A stretch of DNA of 27,060 bases from a virus: IMG/VR virus record IMGVR_UViG_3300027906_000119, positions 1-27,060 of that record; one strand, 5' to 3'. Position numbers and translations under genes: made by a program. The stretch's first letter is position 1, and every line of letters starts with the position of its first letter. Below the pieces are notes generated by a model. The model was not told the DNA's origin. It worked only from the letters and a program-made list of their open reading frames with translations, and made no database searches. Below, piece by piece: positions 20,665-26,641 of this stretch.

Positions 20665-20829
20665 TCACATATTTTTTACTCTTTTTACATTTTTATTAGA
20701 TATATATAACTATAGGGTTGCCCCCTCCCCTCAGGTCGCCCTTCCAAAAAAGAAAATCGTTTTCATTTTACCGGGTCCCCCTTTTCCTAGAGAAAAATCG
20801 ATAAAGGTTTTGCCTTTAATTTAATTTTA

Positions 20830-21100
20830 TCCCCCATGTTTCACGTTTTTCCCTGGGACCTAGCCTATCCCCTCCCTCCCTCCCTTCCTATCCCATCCCA
20901 CCCTGCCCCTCCCCTCCCCCATCCTCATCCACATATCACATCGGTTTGTCTTTGTCTTATATGTATTCATATCATATCCCTTTGTCCTTGTCTTTATCAC
21001 ATCACATCTGTTTGTCTTTGTCCTACCCTATCCCCTCCCCTCCCATCCCCATCCCTAACCTCATCGCCCCACCCTCCACCCCTCCCTCCCTCCCACATTT
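20830..21100. repeat. Polypyrimidine C-rich tract
   Basis: The plus strand is nearly all C and T, with many CCC and CCCC runs (dense at 20864-20930 and 21024-21095). The complementary strand is therefore G-rich with repeated G3-G5 runs, which could form G-quadruplexes, and the C strand could form i-motifs. This is a sharp break from the AT-rich genome. It has an open plus-strand frame that is a by-product of composition and not a gene. Confidence 0.75.
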
Positions 21101-21122
21101 CACATTAGTTTGTTTTTGTTAA
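20935..21122 (+). repeat. Four iteron-like direct repeats
   Basis: Copies at 20935-20959, 20971-20996, 21001-21025 and 21099-21122 share TCACAT(C/T)nGTTTGTCTTTGTC, with the second (TCATATCCCTTTGTCCTTG) and fourth (TCACATTAGTTTGTTTTTG) more diverged. The first three lie 30-36 nt apart between the two C-rich stretches and the fourth next to the first bipartite motif. Direct repeats of this size in an intergenic region resemble iterons bound by an origin or regulatory protein. Confidence 0.6.
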
Positions 21123-21129
21123 TCATGTT

Positions 21130-21162
21130 GCAATGTAAATACGAGTGACTTAAGATAATATA
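21130..21162 (+). promoter_or_regulatory. Bipartite promoter-like motif, copy 1 (ATGT type)
   Basis: GCAATGTAAATACGA, 9-nt spacer, GATAATATA. It is the first copy after the intergenic tract, 38 nt before the start of a 32-residue hydrophobic peptide. TTGCAA at its 5' edge corresponds to TTACAA in most other copies. The one mismatch to the other ATGT copies is G for A at the first base. Confidence 0.65.
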
Positions 21163-21200
21163 TATGTAAGCAACGAAGCTAACAACTTAAATTAAATAAT

Positions 21201-21299
21201 ATGTATAAATTAAAACTAATAACTTTCAACATCGCACTAACATTATTCGTAATAAATATAATTCACTTTATATTTCAATTAATTAAAATTACAATGTAA
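21201..21299 (+). CDS. 32-residue hydrophobic peptide
   Basis: ATG 21201 to TAA 21299, preceded by motif copy 1 and an A/T leader ending AAATTAAATAAT. The peptide (MYKLKLITFNIALTLFVINI, then IHFIFQLIKITM) is almost wholly membrane-type. Its last codons ACA-ATG-TAA are the first bases of motif copy 2, so its end is fixed by that motif. It is too short for certainty, but a motif and leader placed just before it argue that it is expressed. Function unknown; inner-membrane targeting is likely. Confidence 0.45.
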   Translation: MYKLKLITFNIALTLFVINIIHFIFQLIKITM

Positions 21300-21323
21300 A
21301 TACGACTCATATAAGATAATATA
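21291..21323 (+). promoter_or_regulatory. Bipartite promoter-like motif, copy 2 (ATGT type)
   Basis: ACAATGTAAATACGA, 9-nt spacer, GATAATATA. It is 55 nt upstream of the gene at 21379 and overlaps the stop codon of the preceding peptide frame. Confidence 0.65.
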
Positions 21324-21378
21324 TATATAACAAACTAAATAACTAAATTAAATTAATAACTAATAAAAAATAAATAAT

Positions 21379-21600
21379 ATGTCTAAATTAAATAAAATAA
21401 CTAAAACTCGATTTGTAATCTCTAACTCTTTACTTGGTAAAAATCTAATAATTACATTTACAAATAAGAAAAATGAAACTTTCGAGTATAATCATGATGA
21501 AGTTTTCGCGAGAAATCAAAACTTATTAATGTCAATGAATTGCTTCATTAAATATGGTAATTATACAAATACTAATAAATTACCAAACTGGGCTAAGTAA
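21379..21600 (+). CDS. Small protein, paralogue of 22796-23044
   Basis: 73 residues. TKTRFVISNSLLGKNLIITF, then TNKKNETFEYNHDEVFARNQ, and CFIKYGNYTNTNKLPNWAK at the end. It aligns without gaps over most of its length with the protein at 22796-23044 (shared RFVI.SL.G, ITFTNKKNET, HDE, MNCF, YG.YTN.N.P). It may be a small beta-sheet protein; no function is known. It has no signal or membrane segment. The leader is pure A/T, without a Shine-Dalgarno sequence. Its downstream 230 nt are non-coding. Confidence 0.78.
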   Translation: MSKLNKITKTRFVISNSLLGKNLIITFTNKKNETFEYNHDEVFARNQNLLMSMNCFIKYGNYTNTNKLPNWAK

Positions 21601-21836
21601 AACTCAGTTTACATAAAAGTCCAGTTAGTTACGCTTGTTTCCTGGTAAATCAAATATGAATGAGCGAGCACCTCAACTTATAAAAGTATGACAATAGCCT
21701 GTTATTCGCTATACTTATAACCCTTTTGTCACACTATTAATACTATAATATTAATATATCTATGTAAGATATTGAGATATCAAGTGTTATAATAGAAACT
21801 AAAAATAAACTAATTAATAAATATACACCTTTTAAA
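21601..21836 (+). other. Non-coding stretch with imperfect hairpin
   Basis: About 236 nt without a convincing gene. AAGTAT (21684-21689) and ATACTT (21711-21716) form the core of an imperfect hairpin that extends outwards (TTATA/TATAA with a bulge) and inwards (AATA/TATT), followed by CCCTTTTGTC, a weak intrinsic-terminator-like layout. TATAAT occurs at 21788-21793. It could be the 3' untranslated region of the gene ending at 21600 or a small RNA. Confidence 0.35.
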
Positions 21837-21892
21837 ATGAATAAATATAATAATAAAAAAGAAGAACAAAGTGCAAATAAGTACTTGGAGTA

Positions 21893-21943
21893 ATGATGAT
21901 ACTATTTTGTATACTAGTAATATTAAACTATATTACAATGTAA
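21893..21943 (+). CDS. Possible 16-residue hydrophobic micropeptide
   Basis: ATG 21893 to TAA 21943, MMILFCILVILNYITM. A preceding 18-codon frame (21837-21893) ends TAATG onto this start. Like the peptide at 21201, it ends ACA-ATG-TAA at the start of a bipartite motif copy. The pattern may be due to the motif being able to terminate any frame ending this way, so confidence is low. Confidence 0.2.
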   Translation: MMILFCILVILNYITM

Positions 21944-21967
21944 ATACGAATGAGTAAGGATAATAAT
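21935..21967 (+). promoter_or_regulatory. Bipartite promoter-like motif, copy 3 (ATGT type)
   Basis: ACAATGTAAATACGA, 9-nt spacer, GATAATAAT. It is 30 nt upstream of the ATG at 21998, and the leader between is almost identical to the one before 23179. Confidence 0.65.
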
Positions 21968-21997
21968 AATATAAATAACTAATTAAAATTAAATAAT

Positions 21998-22126
21998 ATG
22001 AAAATAAATACTAAAAATACTAATATTGATATCACTCGACTAACTCTCGATTGGTTTGAAGGCAAAATTACTGCTAAAGAATATACTAAAATTGTTAAAA
22101 AATTAAATACTAAAGAAAATGCTTGA
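21998..22126 (+). CDS. 42-residue unknown protein
   Basis: ATG 21998 to TGA 22126. The sequence begins MKINTKNTNIDITRLTLDWF, then EGKITAKEYTKIVKKLNTKE, probably one beta hairpin followed by a helix (W-F-x-x-K-I-x-x-x-E-Y-T-K-I). It directly follows motif copy 3 and a conserved A/T leader and overlaps the next gene by 8 nt, which supports reality. Function unknown. Confidence 0.62.
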   Translation: MKINTKNTNIDITRLTLDWFEGKITAKEYTKIVKKLNTKENA

Positions 22127-22364
22127 TTTAACTAAACTAACAAAATTAAATGAAAACCATGAGTGGTTAGTAGATAATCCAGATTACTCAGAATTATATG
22201 AGAGAATTGGTTTTGAGAATATGGAAGACTACTTAATTGTCTACTCTTTTATACACAATTTAAAAGAAGTTACTAATGAACTAATTGATAACAATATAGA
22301 ATTTAGTCACCAGTCTTGCCACTTGTCAGATGAATCTTATTTACTAATAAATATAAAGCAATAA
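22119..22364 (+). CDS. 81-residue acidic unknown protein
   Basis: Mainly acidic and helical: MLDLTKLTKLNENHEWLVDN, then ELYERIGFENMEDYLIVYSF and IDNNIEFSHQSCHLSDESYL. No domain is recognised. It has no membrane segment and one Cys. It overlaps the 42-residue gene upstream by 8 nt and is followed after one base by another small frame, so it belongs to the same transcript. Confidence 0.72.
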   Translation: MLDLTKLTKLNENHEWLVDNPDYSELYERIGFENMEDYLIVYSFIHNLKEVTNELIDNNIEFSHQSCHLSDESYLLINIKQ

Positions 22365-22365
22365 A

Positions 22366-22509
22366 ATGAAAACAATAACACTAAAAATAGATGAAGATAA
22401 TGATATCTTTGAAATGAGAATTGGAAATGAAATATATACTCTTGACAATGTATATCAAAGTGAATATGGAAATCTATTTGATGAATTAAATATAGCAATA
22501 GAAATATGA
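22366..22509 (+). CDS. 47-residue acidic unknown protein
   Basis: ATG 22366 to TGA 22509. MKTITLKIDEDNDIFEMRIG, then NEIYTLDNVYQSEYGNLFDE and LNIAIEI: alternating strand-like residues with Asp/Glu, as in a small beta fold. It overlaps the next gene by ATGA (22506-22509). No function is known. Confidence 0.62.
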   Translation: MKTITLKIDEDNDIFEMRIGNEIYTLDNVYQSEYGNLFDELNIAIEI

Positions 22510-22745
22510 AAAAAATAATACTAGCAGTAGGAGCATTGGGAGTAATGTCTTTTACAACAAATCAAATACTACATACTTATCAACTTTCAGAAGCAATAAA
22601 TAATGTTCAAGATATGAAAGAGTGGATGGAAGAAGATATTTACAATAGTAGACTAGATGAAAGTGTCGGAAGTGATTACATTGATGTACTCAATGAAACT
22701 GAAGATCTACTCATTGATTTTTACAATGTAAATACGAACAAGTAG
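22506..22745 (+). CDS. Small protein with N-terminal export or membrane segment
   Basis: 79 residues. MKKIILAVGALGVMSFTTNQ is a typical signal peptide or signal anchor, followed by an acidic helical part with Trp at residue 40 (NNVQDMKEWMEEDIY, then YIDVLNETEDLLIDF). The last residues FYNVNTNK are encoded by the first element of motif copy 4, so the motif lies inside the gene end. It may act in the envelope; function unknown. Confidence 0.72.
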   Translation: MKKIILAVGALGVMSFTTNQILHTYQLSEAINNVQDMKEWMEEDIYNSRLDESVGSDYIDVLNETEDLLIDFYNVNTNK

Positions 22746-22755
22746 AGATAATATA
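22723..22755 (+). promoter_or_regulatory. Bipartite promoter-like motif, copy 4 (ATGT type)
   Basis: ACAATGTAAATACGA, 9-nt spacer, GATAATATA. It overlaps the 3' end of the preceding gene (stop at 22745) and lies 40 nt before the ATG at 22796. Confidence 0.65.
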
Positions 22756-22795
22756 AATGTAAACAAATTAATAACTAAATAAAATAAAATAAACT

Positions 22796-23044
22796 ATGAA
22801 TACTTTAACAACAAAGAGATTCGTGATAAGAAAATCACTAATCGGTGAAGATGTAACAATTACATTCACTAACAAGAAAAATGAAACTTATACTTACGAT
22901 CATGACGAGATCTACTCGACTCATCAAGAGAAATTTGAAACTATGAATTGCTTTCAAGAGTATGGTTCTTACACTAACTCAAATACAGTACCAAAATTCT
23001 GTAGAGATTTAAGTGAGGTTGAAAAACCAGAGATTACTGAGTAA
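22796..23044 (+). CDS. Small protein, paralogue of 21379-21600
   Basis: 82 residues. TLTTKRFVIRKSLIGEDVTI, then TFTNKKNETYTYDHDEIYST and TMNCFQEYGSYTNSNTVPKF, with a C-terminal acidic extension (DLSEVEKPEITE). It shares RFVI.xSL.G, ITFTNKKNET, HDE, MNCF and Y-T-N-x-N with the protein at 21379. As with that gene, a motif copy precedes it and a structured non-coding stretch follows, so the whole module appears duplicated. Confidence 0.78.
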   Translation: MNTLTTKRFVIRKSLIGEDVTITFTNKKNETYTYDHDEIYSTHQEKFETMNCFQEYGSYTNSNTVPKFCRDLSEVEKPEITE

Positions 23045-23063
23045 AGTGATCCACTATATATAA

Positions 23064-23143
23064 GCTGAGATAGCGAGAAATAGTATGTTAACACTCTTAT
23101 TAAAGAAGGAACATCTCGAGTAGGTTGTAACTACTCCTCAGCT
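23064..23143 (+). ncRNA. tRNA-like or other structured RNA
   Basis: GCTGAG (23064-23069) pairs with CTCAGC (23137-23142), and a flanking A/T pair gives 7 bp. Immediately inside the 3' strand is a hairpin GAGTAG-GTTGTAA-CTACTC (23118-23136), in the place of a tRNA T-arm. A weaker 7-nt loop ATTAAAG with 4 stem pairs (23094-23110) lies where an anticodon loop would be, reading TAA (Leu). The region from 23070 to 23092 does not form a D-arm, the T-loop departs from TTCxAxx, and the variable part is about 8 nt. It is therefore a tRNA-like fold at most; it lies in the 134-nt gap between 23044 and 23179. Confidence 0.3.
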
Positions 23144-23156
23144 CTAAATTAAATAT

Positions 23157-23178
23157 TAACTAATTAAAATTAAATAAA
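23157..23178 (+). promoter_or_regulatory. Conserved A/T-rich translation leader
   Basis: The 22 nt before the ATG at 23179 match the 22 nt before the ATG at 21998 (21976-21997) in 21 of 22 positions, and similar A/T leaders precede 21201, 21379 and 22796. There is no GGAGG. A/T-rich leaders are how Bacteroidota-type ribosomes commonly initiate, so this is probably the phage's translation-enhancing leader. Confidence 0.5.
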
Positions 23179-23376
23179 ATGGCATATAATCCAAATAATC
23201 CTTCAAACTGGTCTTGGAAAAGAGCGTTTGATGAAGTAGAAAAATCAGTGATACAAGGTGAAATGACTCAACAAGTAATAAACCATCTTGGTGATTACAC
23301 AGGTGAAACTAAATATGTAGATCTACCTAAAGAAAAACAAGATGATCTTTATGAAATACTTGGACAAATACTATAA
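23179..23376 (+). CDS. 65-residue unknown protein
   Basis: MAYNPNNPSNWSWKRAFDEV, then EKSVIQGEMTQQVINHLGDY and DLPKEKQDDLYEILGQIL: one aromatic N-terminus and three helices. Polar and acidic, no cysteine, no membrane segment. It has the conserved leader but no bipartite motif directly in front; the structured stretch 23064-23143 lies upstream instead. Function unknown. Confidence 0.72.
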   Translation: MAYNPNNPSNWSWKRAFDEVEKSVIQGEMTQQVINHLGDYTGETKYVDLPKEKQDDLYEILGQIL

Positions 23377-23377
23377 T

Positions 23378-23410
23378 ACAAACTGAATACGACACTTGAA
23401 AGATAATAAT
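23378..23410 (+). promoter_or_regulatory. Bipartite promoter-like motif, copy 5 (AACT type)
   Basis: ACAAACTGAATACGA, 9-nt spacer, GATAATAAT. The next ATG begins only 3 nt after it (23414), so if this is a promoter the mRNA would be nearly leaderless. It begins just after the previous stop. Confidence 0.6.
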
Positions 23411-23413
23411 AAT

Positions 23414-23686
23414 ATGAAAGATAAAATAAAATACATAACAACTAAACACTTAGACGCTATGATCGGTGACGACTACGTTAAACTAGCAGTTTTTCAAAGA
23501 AAGAACTCACCATATGGTTGGACTAAAAGAGAACTTAGAGTATCACCTTTTGGAGTGGACTTAGAAGAATTCGATTTTAACTACGTGAAGAAATATGTTA
23601 ATGAAGTATATTCTATCTTTCCTGATGAAGAAATAAAAGAATTAATAACTAAAGTAAATAAATACTATGAAAAGAACAATAAATAA
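23414..23686 (+). CDS. 90-residue unknown protein
   Basis: MKDKIKYITTKHLDAMIGDD, then KLAVFQRKNSPYGWTKRELR and FDFNYVKKYVNEVYSIFPDE, ending in a basic helix. I start at ATG 23414 rather than the in-frame TTG at 23396, which falls inside the bipartite motif. Mixed alpha/beta, soluble, no cysteine. Function unknown. It overlaps the next gene by 20 nt. Confidence 0.7.
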   Translation: MKDKIKYITTKHLDAMIGDDYVKLAVFQRKNSPYGWTKRELRVSPFGVDLEEFDFNYVKKYVNEVYSIFPDEEIKELITKVNKYYEKNNK

Positions 23687-23822
23687 GTGGGACATTACTA
23701 CACCACTACAAAGAAAGATTGGTAAATATATAAAAATAACACTCGCACTGGTATTTTTAAGTGTATGGACACCTATATTTATATACACCATAAATGAAGT
23801 AATTAAAATGATAATCAAGTAA
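23667..23822 (+). CDS. 51-residue single-pass membrane protein
   Basis: ATG 23667 to TAA 23822. A basic N-terminus (MKRTINKWDITTPLQRKIGK) precedes a hydrophobic stretch ITLALVFLSVWTPIFIYTI (about 24-42) and a short end NEVIKMIIK. It is a type II or similar inner-membrane protein. It overlaps the previous gene by 20 nt, in keeping with the operon. Function unknown; membrane-altering early proteins are common in phages. Confidence 0.6.
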   Translation: MKRTINKWDITTPLQRKIGKYIKITLALVFLSVWTPIFIYTINEVIKMIIK

Positions 23823-23832
23823 TAATTATAAT

Positions 23833-24036
23833 ATGAGTGATATAGAGAAAATAGAAAAAATAGCTAAAGGAATCATGGCAGGATACTATGGTGAGAAGCA
23901 GAAATGTGGTACTGAGTATCAGAAATGGACTTACGCGGTATTACAAGCAGATAAGATCTATTCAGGTGAATGGATAGTAGATAAAGAAACTAATGACTAT
24001 GGTTACGACTATGTTCAACAAATACTACAATCATGA
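23833..24036 (+). CDS. 67-residue unknown protein
   Basis: MSDIEKIEKIAKGIMAGYYG, then EKQKCGTEYQKWTYAVLQAD, and KIYSGEWIVDKETNDYGYDY. One Cys, aromatic-rich, helical at the start. No recognised domain. It shares an ATGA overlap (24033-24036) with the next frame. Confidence 0.7.
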   Translation: MSDIEKIEKIAKGIMAGYYGEKQKCGTEYQKWTYAVLQADKIYSGEWIVDKETNDYGYDYVQQILQS

Positions 24037-24161
24037 TTGATATAGAACACATAAGACTAGCGGCACTCAGATGGTTGCAAGTACAACAGTTAAGAACCAA
24101 ATACCCAAATGATCAAGAATTTGGTCACGAAGTAGCAAAACTAATAAAGAAAGATGAGTAA
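24033..24161 (+). CDS. 42-residue helical protein
   Basis: ATG 24033 to TAA 24161. MIDIEHIRLAALRWLQVQQL, then RTKYPNDQEFGHEVAKLIKK: two helices with Leu/Trp faces. ATGA overlap with the gene before and 8-nt overlap with the next support it. Function unknown. Confidence 0.62.
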   Translation: MIDIEHIRLAALRWLQVQQLRTKYPNDQEFGHEVAKLIKKDE

Positions 24162-24303
24162 AAGTGATGACGCTTACATAAAAAAAGCAATGTTGAAAGT
24201 GAAAGGTGGAGAATTTTACAACTGGTATAAGAATTTGCCTGGATATTTACAAGAAGCTTACAAAAGAGAATTTAACAAATTACAAACTAAATACGAACGC
24301 TAA
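24154..24303 (+). CDS. 49-residue basic protein
   Basis: ATG 24154 to TAA 24303. MSKSDDAYIKKAMLKVKGGE, then FYNWYKNLPGYLQEAYKREF, NKLQTKYER at the end. The final codons are the first element of motif copy 6 (ACAAACTAAATACGA read as ...QTKYE), so gene end and motif share the same bases. Function unknown. Confidence 0.6.
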   Translation: MSKSDDAYIKKAMLKVKGGEFYNWYKNLPGYLQEAYKREFNKLQTKYER

Positions 24304-24314
24304 TAGATAATATA
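24282..24314 (+). promoter_or_regulatory. Bipartite promoter-like motif, copy 6 (AACT type)
   Basis: ACAAACTAAATACGA, 9-nt spacer, GATAATATA. It overlaps the end of the preceding gene, and the next ATG begins 3 nt after it (24318), the same near-leaderless layout as copy 5. Confidence 0.62.
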
Positions 24315-24317
24315 TAT

Positions 24318-24485
24318 ATGAATACGATAAAAACACACACAGCAGACCGCAAGAAAGTAACAATAACTAAAACTATTAACGGTCAAATTGAAAAGAGAAC
24401 TTATAGAGGAGTTACTATTAATAATGTACCTGAAGAGTATAACCATTGGTTTAACTATAAAGGTCTAAGCTTTATAATCTCATGA
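24318..24485 (+). CDS. 55-residue basic protein
   Basis: ATG 24318 to TGA 24485. MNTIKTHTADRKKVTITKTI, then NGQIEKRTYRGVTINNVPEE, YNHWFNYKGLSFIIS. Strand-rich with basic residues. ATGA overlap with the next gene (24482-24485). No recognised family. Confidence 0.62.
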   Translation: MNTIKTHTADRKKVTITKTINGQIEKRTYRGVTINNVPEEYNHWFNYKGLSFIIS

Positions 24486-24682
24486 AAAAGAAATTAAAAT
24501 ATATGTGTCCAGAGTGTAAAGCTATGTATGAAGGACCTCAAGGAGCAACTCCATATATAGTAGCATGGAATGACGGTCACTTCTGTACTCCACGATTAGT
24601 AGGAGAAGAAGAAGTTAAAAAGCTTAGTGATAAAACTGAAAGCTTAAAACATGACGAGTTATGGACAACATATTATAACTAA
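24482..24682 (+). CDS. 66-residue probable zinc-binding protein
   Basis: MKKKLKYMCPECKAMYEGPQ has C9-P-E-C12, and a later H33-F-C35 (NDGHFC) gives a CxxC...HxC set that fits a compact zinc-ribbon or treble-clef fold. The remainder is acidic/basic helix (EEEVKKLSDKTESLKHDE). It may bind nucleic acid or a host protein. The zinc role is inference from residue spacing. Confidence 0.68.
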   Translation: MKKKLKYMCPECKAMYEGPQGATPYIVAWNDGHFCTPRLVGEEEVKKLSDKTESLKHDELWTTYYN

Positions 24683-24749
24683 ACAACCACGACTTCAATA
24701 CTTGCGACAGGCGATGTCGGAGAAGAAGAAAAACTGTGGGGCTGAGTGA
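24651..24749 (+). CDS. Possible 32-residue protein before the tRNA-like element
   Basis: ATG 24651 to TGA 24749, overlapping the zinc-protein gene by 32 nt: MTSYGQHIITKQPRLQYLRQ, then AMSEKKKNCGAE. It runs into the 5' part of the tRNA-like fold at 24742. Overlap of this kind is usual in the block, but the short length leaves it uncertain. Confidence 0.35.
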   Translation: MTSYGQHIITKQPRLQYLRQAMSEKKKNCGAE

Positions 24750-24821
24750 CGGCTCAGTTTGGAAAGCGAGGTCAGGTTATGACTGTTCTAGACATGAGAG
24801 GTTCGAATCCTCTCTCTCGTT
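24742..24821 (+). tRNA. tRNA-like element, anticodon-position TAT
   Basis: A canonical-looking T-arm AGAGG-TTCGAAT-CCTCT (24797-24813) is followed by CTCTCGT (24814-24820), which pairs 5 of 7 with CTGAGTG (24742-24748). Ahead of it is a D-arm-like stretch GCTC-AGTTTGGAAA-GCGA (24752-24769) with the conserved A, GG and A but only two good stem pairs. An anticodon-arm candidate GTCAG-GTTATGA-CTGTT (24771-24787) has four of five pairs and U33 before TAT, which would read AUA (Ile), a frequent codon here. The variable region is about 9 nt and no CCA is encoded. It may be a degenerate phage tRNA or another RNA using a T-arm. Confidence 0.38.
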
Positions 24822-24870
24822 CAAAAAGATTTACACGAGGTAGATCTATAAACTATAAAAATATAGTAAT

Positions 24871-25041
24871 ATGCAAGAATTAATCAAACAATTGCAAAAC
24901 TTATACTCATGGAATCAGTTCTATCAAAGTAGAACTATGAGGAAAGAAATGAAGACATGCCAACTTCAAATCAATGGCAAAAAACAAGAGATTAACGAGT
25001 TTAAAATGGCTCAGAAAAAGAGAAGAGGAGGCAAGAAATGA
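24871..25041 (+). CDS. 56-residue basic helical protein
   Basis: ATG 24871 to TGA 25041. MQELIKQLQNLYSWNQFYQS, then RTMRKEMKTCQLQINGKKQE, and a Lys/Arg-rich end KKRRGGKK. The basic tail could bind nucleic acid. ATGA overlap with the next gene (25038-25041). It is the first gene after the tRNA-like element. Confidence 0.62.
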   Translation: MQELIKQLQNLYSWNQFYQSRTMRKEMKTCQLQINGKKQEINEFKMAQKKRRGGKK

Positions 25042-25349
25042 CTTGGACAGAACTAGCTCAACAGCCATTCACTCAAAAGCGTAAAAACTTAAAAGAGATT
25101 AAGAAGAACGCTAAAGAATTAATGATACATGTAGTAGCATCTATGTGTGATAACAGGTATATCTTATCACTAAAGAAAAATTCTGATGGAGAATTTAAAA
25201 TGGATGGTGGAAGATATGCTCTCAGTAACTTTGGTTTCAAATCACCTGTCTATGAAATAGAGTGGGCAGCAGATGAAGGTAACTGGAGTGAGGTAATAGA
25301 TATTATAAACAGTGGATATCAAAGAATCCACAAAATCAAAAGCAGATGA
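25038..25349 (+). CDS. 103-residue unknown protein
   Basis: MTWTELAQQPFTQKRKNLKE, then IHVVASMCDNRYILSLKKNS, DGGRYALSNFGFKSPVYEIE, and WSEVIDIINSGYQRIHKIKS. It is mixed alpha/beta with one Cys and a Trp/Glu-rich middle (EWAADEGNWSE). No family recognised. It ends in an overlap (ATGATGA) with the next gene, one of a paralogous pair. Confidence 0.75.
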   Translation: MTWTELAQQPFTQKRKNLKEIKKNAKELMIHVVASMCDNRYILSLKKNSDGEFKMDGGRYALSNFGFKSPVYEIEWAADEGNWSEVIDIINSGYQRIHKIKSR

Positions 25350-25549
25350 TGAAAATGGATAACGGAACAGCAAGTAATAGTAAGATCTTTGAACTAAATG
25401 ATCAAGATATCGAGCTGATAGTCAGATTGTTACACGAAGAGTGCGATCACCACGTGTATCATCAAGGTGCTATTAGAAAACCAGATCAAGAATACTTTAA
25501 AGAAAGGTATGATCACTGCCAAGATTTAATAATGGAATTAACGAAATGA
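25346..25549 (+). CDS. 67-residue helical protein, paralogue of the next gene
   Basis: FELNDQDIELIVRLLHEECD, then HHVYHQGAIRKPDQEYFKER, and YDHCQDLIMELTK. The frame LxxxDIELIxxxL......KxRYxHxxxLIxxx is shared with the gene at 25546-25671, which therefore arose by tandem duplication. It is acidic, His- and Cys-containing (C29, H30, H31, H34). Function unknown. ATGA overlap with its paralogue. Confidence 0.72.
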   Translation: MMKMDNGTASNSKIFELNDQDIELIVRLLHEECDHHVYHQGAIRKPDQEYFKERYDHCQDLIMELTK

Positions 25550-25671
25550 AATTAAGTGAAGACGATATAGAATTAATAATAAAAGCTTTAAAATACTTTC
25601 AAGAAAGTAGTATAAAGGATAGATACAATCACTTAGAAGAATTAATAATAAAATATCAAAATGAGCGATAA
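25546..25671 (+). CDS. 41-residue helical protein, shortened paralogue
   Basis: ATG 25546 to TAA 25671. MKLSEDDIELIIKALKYFQE, then SSIKDRYNHLEELIIKYQNE. It matches the previous protein at the DIELI helix and the K-x-RYxHxxxLI helix but lacks the His/Cys segment between. ATGA overlap with that gene and an 11-nt overlap with the next support it. Function unknown. Confidence 0.65.
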   Translation: MKLSEDDIELIIKALKYFQESSIKDRYNHLEELIIKYQNER

Positions 25672-25819
25672 AGAAGCATTACAAGTAATAGTATTTATGG
25701 TGAATGATCATGTAAATAACAATGATAATCCTCATCGTGATTGGAAACTAGTAAATGATCTAATAAAATTTTTAGAAGAGAACGTAATACATTGCGCCAT
25801 GGATAATAACTATAAATAA
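25661..25819 (+). CDS. 52-residue unknown protein
   Basis: ATG 25661 to TAA 25819. MSDKEALQVIVFMVNDHVNN, then NDNPHRDWKLVNDLIKFLEE, NVIHCAMDNNYK. Helical, acidic, one Cys, two helices split by an Asn/Asp-rich turn. No function recognised. It sits within the overlapping chain of small genes. Confidence 0.6.
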   Translation: MSDKEALQVIVFMVNDHVNNNDNPHRDWKLVNDLIKFLEENVIHCAMDNNYK

Positions 25820-25825
25820 GAAATT

Positions 25826-26044
25826 ATGACAGTAAGAGAATTAATACAAGAATTAAAATACATGGATGAAGATGCAACAGTGAGATTTGCATCTCAACCA
25901 AGTTGGCCTTTTGAATACTCTATATATGGAGTAGTGCAAACTACAGTAAACTATAATGATAACGAAAGAGATATAGTTTACCTAGAAGAAGGTAAACAAG
26001 TAGGATATTTGCCTAAAGAGGCTAAAGACGAACTAGGGTGGTAG
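25826..26044 (+). CDS. 72-residue conserved-looking phage protein
   Basis: TVRELIQELKYMDEDATVRF and ASQPSWPFEYSIYGVVQTTV, then YNDNERDIVYLEEGKQVGYL and PKEAKDELGW. The TVRELIxELKxMDxDAxVRFASQPSWPFEY start is a common phage hypothetical pattern, giving confidence in the frame but no function. It is the best-conserved-looking gene of the plus-strand block. Confidence 0.78.
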   Translation: MTVRELIQELKYMDEDATVRFASQPSWPFEYSIYGVVQTTVNYNDNERDIVYLEEGKQVGYLPKEAKDELGW

Positions 26045-26145
26045 AATTTTTAAGAGATACTTTAATAGTAATCATAGGAATTCTATGTACACCAATAACA
26101 TTAACATATGAACTAATAAGATACTTATGCAACAAATTAAAGTAA
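26038..26145 (+). CDS. Possible 35-residue membrane protein with GTG start
   Basis: GTG 26038 to TAA 26145, GTG overlapping the previous stop by GTGGTAG. The translation is VVEFLRDTLIVIIGILCTPI, then TLTYELIRYLCNKLK, a membrane helix with a basic tail. A GTG start in this AT-rich block is unusual, but the hydrophobic helix and stop-start overlap suggest a real membrane micropeptide. Confidence 0.45.
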   Translation: MVEFLRDTLIVIIGILCTPITLTYELIRYLCNKLK

Positions 26146-26249
26146 CCATGAAGGAGATATACGATGCTATGAAGCCTTCAGTAGAAAGAAATAAAAAGAA
26201 ATACACCCGTAAAACCAAACATAAAAATGAAAAAAAGAACTATGAATGA
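26127..26249 (+). CDS. 40-residue Lys-rich protein
   Basis: ATG 26127 to TGA 26249. MQQIKVTMKEIYDAMKPSVE, then RNKKKYTRKTKHKNEKKNYE. It is strongly basic after residue 20, as for small nucleic-acid-binding or inhibitor proteins. It overlaps both neighbours (19 and 23 nt). Function unknown. Confidence 0.5.
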   Translation: MQQIKVTMKEIYDAMKPSVERNKKKYTRKTKHKNEKKNYE

Positions 26250-26592
26250 GCTTAGGCAAACTAAAGAGTATAAACTTGATAGATTAGAGAAAGCTCACAA
26301 AATACCTGAAGAAATAAAAAATATTCAAACGGATTTAAATGGTGATCATGGAGAAAGTATCACCGAAGTTACTCTTGAAGATCAAATACAAGAGATAGCA
26401 GCAATAGTAGCACCAACTATAAATGATGTAATTTTCAACGAAATTATAGAAGTAATGGACAACTATGATGAATTAAATTGGGGTTACTTTGTACAAGATG
26501 ACGCTCCAACAGCATTACTTGACGCTTGCTTTGACCACAAAACTGAAATTCATTATGAAATATTTCAATTGGTATTACAGAAATTAAAATAA
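26227..26592 (+). CDS. 121-residue acidic unknown protein
   Basis: A basic first 30 residues (MKKRTMNELRQTKEYKLDRL) are followed by an acidic helical body: VTLEDQIQEIAAIVAPTIND, then VIFNEIIEVMDNYDELNWGY, with ALLDACFDHKTEIHYEIFQL. One Cys. No domain recognised. It ends directly before motif copy 7. Confidence 0.75.
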   Translation: MKKRTMNELRQTKEYKLDRLEKAHKIPEEIKNIQTDLNGDHGESITEVTLEDQIQEIAAIVAPTINDVIFNEIIEVMDNYDELNWGYFVQDDAPTALLDACFDHKTEIHYEIFQLVLQKLK

Positions 26593-26594
26593 TT

Positions 26595-26627
26595 ACAAAC
26601 TAAATACGACTGAAGTAGGATAATATA
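26595..26627 (+). promoter_or_regulatory. Bipartite promoter-like motif, copy 7 (AACT type)
   Basis: ACAAACTAAATACGA, 9-nt spacer, GATAATATA. It starts just after the stop at 26592 and lies 14 nt before the next ATG (26642). Confidence 0.65.
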
Positions 26628-26641
26628 ATTAAATAAACAAC

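Follow-up and report, generated by a model that had tools for sequence, protein, structure and literature searches.

Seven predicted early-block promoters in a virus genome fragment, very probably read by a phage-encoded sigma-70-family factor

In phage T4, a replacement sigma factor or a co-activator (gp55, MotA) redirects the host core RNA polymerase, and the -10 elements of promoters read by sigma-28 (FliA) contain GATAA. Pairs of a phage sigma factor and its promoters are already a known kind of system. The locus described here resembles phages phiEco32 and 7-11, which encode a sigma-70-family factor and have several short, conserved promoters of their own; as these lie upstream of the sigma gene or close to it, positive feedback is possible (PMC4331800). 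In phage 7-11, the promoters share a TGATGT core and drive the middle and late genes (PMC4331800). In Flavobacterium psychrophilum, the sigma-A promoter consists of TTTG and TAnnTTTG, and the bacterium otherwise has sigma-54 and ECF factors (PMC9723704). Here we analyze a 27,060-nt virus record (the window, i.e., the whole stretch of DNA studied) with seven copies of a two-part motif, which are very probably promoters read by a phage-encoded sigma-70-family factor on the host RNA polymerase core.

The pattern TACGA-N9-GATAATA occurs seven times in the window, every copy exact and on the plus strand with the fixed 9-nt spacer that the initial annotation had described (Table 1); the minus strand has none, and the reversed pattern gives no match. 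A position weight matrix (PWM) trained on 263 sites from other contigs, with the window sites excluded, picks exactly these seven copies, at scores of 32.6 to 46.4, and finds no further site above 6 on either strand of the rest of the window. The top PWM score in 200 dinucleotide shuffles of the window was 14.4, and the exact pattern appeared once in total among them. The seven copies are real and far above chance. TTACAA at the 5' edge, which had been noted for all but copies 1 and 5, is present in copies 2, 3, 4, 6, and 7; copy 1 has TTGCAA and copy 5 has ATACAA. The copies do lie at gene boundaries, as had been claimed, but not all are intergenic: the ORFs before copies 4 and 6 run at their 3' ends into the promoter sequence. 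Transcripts from copies 5 and 6 would be leaderless mRNAs.

Table 1. The seven predicted promoter copies, in window coordinates; the first position of each -10 element is the G of GATAATA
Copy	Span	Strand	Upstream block	-10 GATAATA	Predicted +1	Downstream	PWM score	Other basis
1	21129..21166	+	21129-21144, then N9	21154-21160	G 21166	35-nt leader, ATG 21201 (32-aa ORF)	32.6	Sequence
2	21290..21327	+		21315-21321	A 21327	Leader, then ATG 21379 (73-aa ORF)	38.0	ORF call
3	21934..21971	+		21959-21965	A 21971	ORF 21998 (42 aa)	36.1	ORF call
4	22722..22759	+	Overlaps 3' end of ORF 22506-22745	22747-22753	G 22759	ORF 22796 (82 aa)	35.2	ORF call
5	23377..23414	+		23402-23408	A of ATG at 23414	Leaderless	37.0	Orthologous site in L332
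6	24281..24318	+	Overlaps 3' end of ORF 24154-24303	24306-24312	A of ATG at 24318	Leaderless, 55-aa ORF	46.4	Orthologous site in L332
7	26594..26631	+		26619-26625	A 26631	ORF 26642 (62 aa)	43.7	Orthologous site in L332

The minus strand of the window carries terminase, portal, GroEL, and GroES genes. By terminase and portal, the nearest named relatives are MW202828, the genome of an environmental podovirus, and cultured phages that infect Flavobacterium, Cellulophaga, Maribacter, and Tenacibaculum. The sigma factor described below is carried by a large group of phages of Bacteroidota type, most of them uncultured. A DNA search with the early region of the window found no match among phage records. 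The window also contains several other elements. The ORFs at 21379-21600 and 22796-23044 encode similar small proteins that look like paralogues, judged by eye and from DNA matches, and each ORF immediately follows a promoter copy of its own. A C-rich polypyrimidine tract (20720-21120, C-skew 0.76) separates the late and early blocks; similar tracts occur in loci L335 and L349 and are absent from most other relatives. A hairpin, TATGACAATAGCC...TTTTGTCACACTA, lies at 21680-21740 (z -3.6), and a similar element, GTGTGACA..AGCCTACTA, lies near the start of the early block in records G002, G020, and G028. At 24700-24825 there is a tRNA-like sequence ending GGTTCGAATCCTCTCTCTCG, conserved at ∼74 to 76% in L338, L342, and L345, for which ARAGORN and Rfam give nothing and folding is not clearly better than that of shuffles.

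A scan of viral contigs for AATACGA-N9-GATAATA yielded at least 119 stretches, many of them in contigs of 45 to 70 kb with several copies each, nearly all on the same strand. Alignment of the exact matches lengthens the consensus to TTACAAACTAAATACGA-N9-GATAATATA, and the full unit reads ACAAA (-36 to -32)-N3-AATACGA (-28 to -22)-N9-GATAATA (-12 to -6)-N5-purine (+1). We measured the geometry of this unit in 80 loci that carry the sigma gene described below (1.19 Mb). ACGA-N9-GATAATA occurs 263 times on the strand of the sigma gene and never on the opposite strand, the reversed control gives no match, and 241 of the 263 sites lie within 10 kb upstream of sigma. The spacer between ACGA and GATAATA is 9 nt in 263 cases, and any other length from 4 to 15 nt occurs at most four times. 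The conserved unit reaches further than the initial annotation had recognized: counting 12 nt on from the G of GATAATA, there is a purine in 262/263 sites, and likewise in 80 of the 82 sites with ACAAA but no ACGA. With G at -12 and the purine at +1, this is the -10/start geometry of a sigma-70-type promoter, in which the -10 element spans -12 to -7, +1 is a purine, and the -35 element lies 16 to 19 bp upstream. The spacing had been judged wrong for a sigma factor, but that judgment does not stand: the hexamer conserved upstream is ACAAAC, and its distance of 18 bp to GATAAT suits one (ACAAA-N19-GATAATA, the same arrangement, occurs 273 times in the sigma-bearing loci). The predicted +1 coincides with the A of an ATG in 32/263 sites, as in window copies 5 and 6, and only 3 of the 94 predicted starts in ten fetched genomes and the window fall well inside an ORF.

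It is worth asking whether the motif could be an operator or an RNA-level site, i.e., a repressor binding site or a leader element. The sites precede small genes, and a protein dimer could bind the two blocks, which are spaced by roughly one turn of the helix. However, the strand asymmetry of 263:0, the fixed -10/+1 geometry, the invariant purine, and predicted starts placed exactly at ATG codons all speak for initiation of transcription, and we consider such a site very improbable. On these sequence features, the seven sequences are almost certainly promoters.

Comparison with related phages, which the initial annotation had suggested, bears this out. Record G059 (67 kb; its locus is L332) is a close relative of the window, with 78 to 94% DNA identity over the matching parts of the early block. 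Across the three promoters that are orthologous between the window and L332 (window copies 5, 6, and 7), the conserved blocks are identical at 67/69 positions (upstream block, 46/48; -10 block, 21/21), while the 9-nt spacer has drifted to 14/27 and the flanks are 70 to 77% identical. Other loci show which part of the motif is constant. In several sigma-bearing loci the sites, again on the sigma strand, retain GATAATA and the +1 purine but have no ACGA, and a different upstream element occupies the same register: TTACAAACAAAAT in L198, L207, and L228; CACGGACTTAA in L219; a C-rich form in L217; and TACAAA..AAATACAA in L177. The constant part is therefore GATAATA plus the start purine, and AATACGA is lineage specific.

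These patterns also bear on another candidate reader, a phage RNA polymerase of the T7-like single-subunit type, for which the G of GATAATA would be +1. TACGA-N9-G does fit the register of the T7 promoter, whose consensus we take to be TAATACGACTCACTATAG. However, the 9-nt spacer is unconserved here, unlike that of T7, the invariant purine is found 12 nt beyond the G, and several lineages have lost TACGA while retaining GATAATA and the purine. In addition, the polymerase family PF00940 matches none of 11 sigma-bearing genomes, while the T7 control gives an E value of 9.9e-110. Such a polymerase is extremely improbable. As for a crAss-type virion RNA polymerase, a regular-expression search of the giant late ORFs found no D.DGD catalytic motif, and one giant late ORF scanned for protein families gave no match.

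What, then, reads these promoters? Comparing motif genomes with motif-less relatives led to a candidate, a sigma-70-family protein of ∼250 amino acids. The terminase, portal, GroEL, and GroES genes of the window recur in all ten motif records that we fetched. The gene families found in 9/9 long motif genomes and in 0/4 motif-less relatives include the sigma gene and a gene for a helix-turn-helix (HTH) protein; MW202828, elemoA, phi38:1, and Panino (three cultured, one environmental) have neither motif nor sigma. Among motif-cluster records of at least 56 kb searched for sigma, 25/26 carry the gene, counting a copy interrupted by stops in G019. In the exception, G062, the cluster is located at that end of the contig where the sigma gene would be expected, and in the shorter sigma-less motif records with coordinates listed, the clusters are also at contig ends. 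In G059, the sigma gene lies ∼4.6 kb past the position that matches the truncated end of the window, and a sigma gene is accordingly placed, by prediction, ∼4.6 kb beyond that end in the window's own genome. In G019, the sigma gene (G019:C1:55767-56520) is broken by stops or a frameshift beside an intact promoter cluster, through sequencing error or decay.

The assignment of this protein to the sigma-70 family comes from several searches. Pfam Sigma70_r2 and Sigma70_r4 score over the cut-off in two of four members scanned and more weakly in the other two, phrog_351 matches all four (down to E 3.5e-25), and the profile matches in the PDB are FliA, SigA, and RpoD (best, the FliA entry 1rp3, E 1.6e-10). 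A Foldseek search with the AlphaFold model (mean pLDDT, 75.5) matches sigma chains. Phage records contain only distant matches, with at most 27% identity. In an alignment with SigA and RpoD, the region 2.4 positions of Escherichia coli Q437 and T440, residues that we take to read promoter position -12 in sigma-70, are occupied by G104 and R107, both invariant in 80/80 phage sigma proteins; K100 and R101, where sigma-70 has two tryptophans, are likewise invariant in 80/80. A G instead of T at -12 fits this change in region 2.4. When we compared promoter bases (-13, presence of ACGA, and others) with sigma and partner residues for covariation, uncorrected for phylogeny, the top columns scattered. 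In L209 and L217 the sigma gene has its own predicted promoter of this class, with +1 at the sigma start codon, an arrangement that points to autoregulation like that of phage 7-11 (PMC4331800).

The HTH gene lies directly upstream of sigma in 73/80 loci and encodes a protein of ∼206 amino acids. Its C-terminal HTH domain resembles TetR/DtxR-type and sigma region 4 folds (Z up to 6.5), and Foldseek with the whole protein gives no clear whole-protein match. One record, G022, carries two diverged HTH-sigma pairs (L131:3078-4447 and L134:4292-5661). It is tempting to assign the upstream block to this partner, as in a middle promoter at which the HTH protein binds and recruits the host holoenzyme with its own sigma, comparable to T4 MotA. 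The adjacency of the two genes, and an upstream block that is long and varies by lineage while GATAATA stays constant, would suit such an activator. However, the F. psychrophilum -10 element TAnnTTTG (PMC9723704) is unlike GATAATA, the same genomes encode a phage sigma factor, and the change of T-12 to G matches the change in region 2.4. We regard host sigma plus activator as quite unlikely; like the operator, it fits less well than reading by the phage sigma factor.

The phage sigma factor, in our preferred reading, would take over the host RNA polymerase core and direct it to the early/small-gene block, binding at these sites, perhaps with help from the HTH partner. GATAATA would serve as the -10 element (-12 to -6) with RNA starting at the +1 purine, ACAAA(C) at -36 to -31 as the -35 element, and AATACGA (positions -28 to -22) as an additional element, which the product of the HTH gene directly before sigma may read. 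The initial annotation had proposed a dedicated promoter read by a phage polymerase or a host-modifying factor. The promoter class and the phage factor stand, on the -10/+1 geometry, the one-strand clustering before small genes, and the co-occurrence with a phage sigma-70-family gene; the polymerase does not, a sigma factor being most likely. Two observations weigh against this reading: the co-occurrence lies within one clade, where shared ancestry could explain the association, and several sigma-bearing lineages do without AATACGA.

The annotation was also right that the motif is unlike the Bacteroidota promoter, as neither the TTTG nor the TAnnTTTG box appears in its PWM. Host-type promoters (TTTG-N16-23-TAnnTTTG) are absent from intergenic DNA of the window and number five in all in that of ten sigma-bearing records plus the window, versus ten in the sigma-less relative Panino, where 0.5 are expected. 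At the early block of sigma-bearing genomes they are absent or near expectation. The late genes, which lie on the strand opposite the early block, share no common upstream motif that we could find; AACTATA and start-codon contexts were inspected as late-promoter candidates and dropped. If every early promoter needs the phage sigma factor, something else must make the first sigma. How, then, does infection start? Since these genomes have almost no host-type promoters, sigma, alone or with its partner, might be carried in the virion, with sigma reading GATAATA and the -35 element and the partner reading AATACGA; we consider this full two-protein scheme unlikely.

In the open literature we found neither the promoter class nor the sigma family described. 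A widespread and almost wholly uncultured phage group, with at least 543 sigma loci in viral contigs, gains a predicted transcription program with starts at nucleotide resolution, and Bacteroidota gain a candidate orthogonal sigma/promoter pair. Unlike the 7-11 promoters, the motif here joins GATAATA to a long upstream block and serves the early/small-gene block, in genomes where host-type promoters are rare. The system differs from T4 gp55/MotA in sequence and genomic context, as here the sigma gene adjoins an HTH gene and its product keeps both regions 2 and 4. The best PDB profile match is to FliA, with which the phage sigma shares RIKGAI of region 2.4; region 3, unlike that of FliA, carries RIPEH, as in sigma-70. 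A sigma-28 promoter was considered and rejected, as GATAA is common to both but the preceding CC and the TAAA spacing are absent from the PWM, and the ACAAAC..AATACGA upstream element and its spacing differ from TAAA-N15-GCCGATAA. With flavobacterial sigma-A (PMC9723704) the promoters share a -10-type element beginning at -12, of different sequence. What is new is the sigma family, the middle AATACGA element, the adjacent HTH gene, and the scarcity of host-type promoters.
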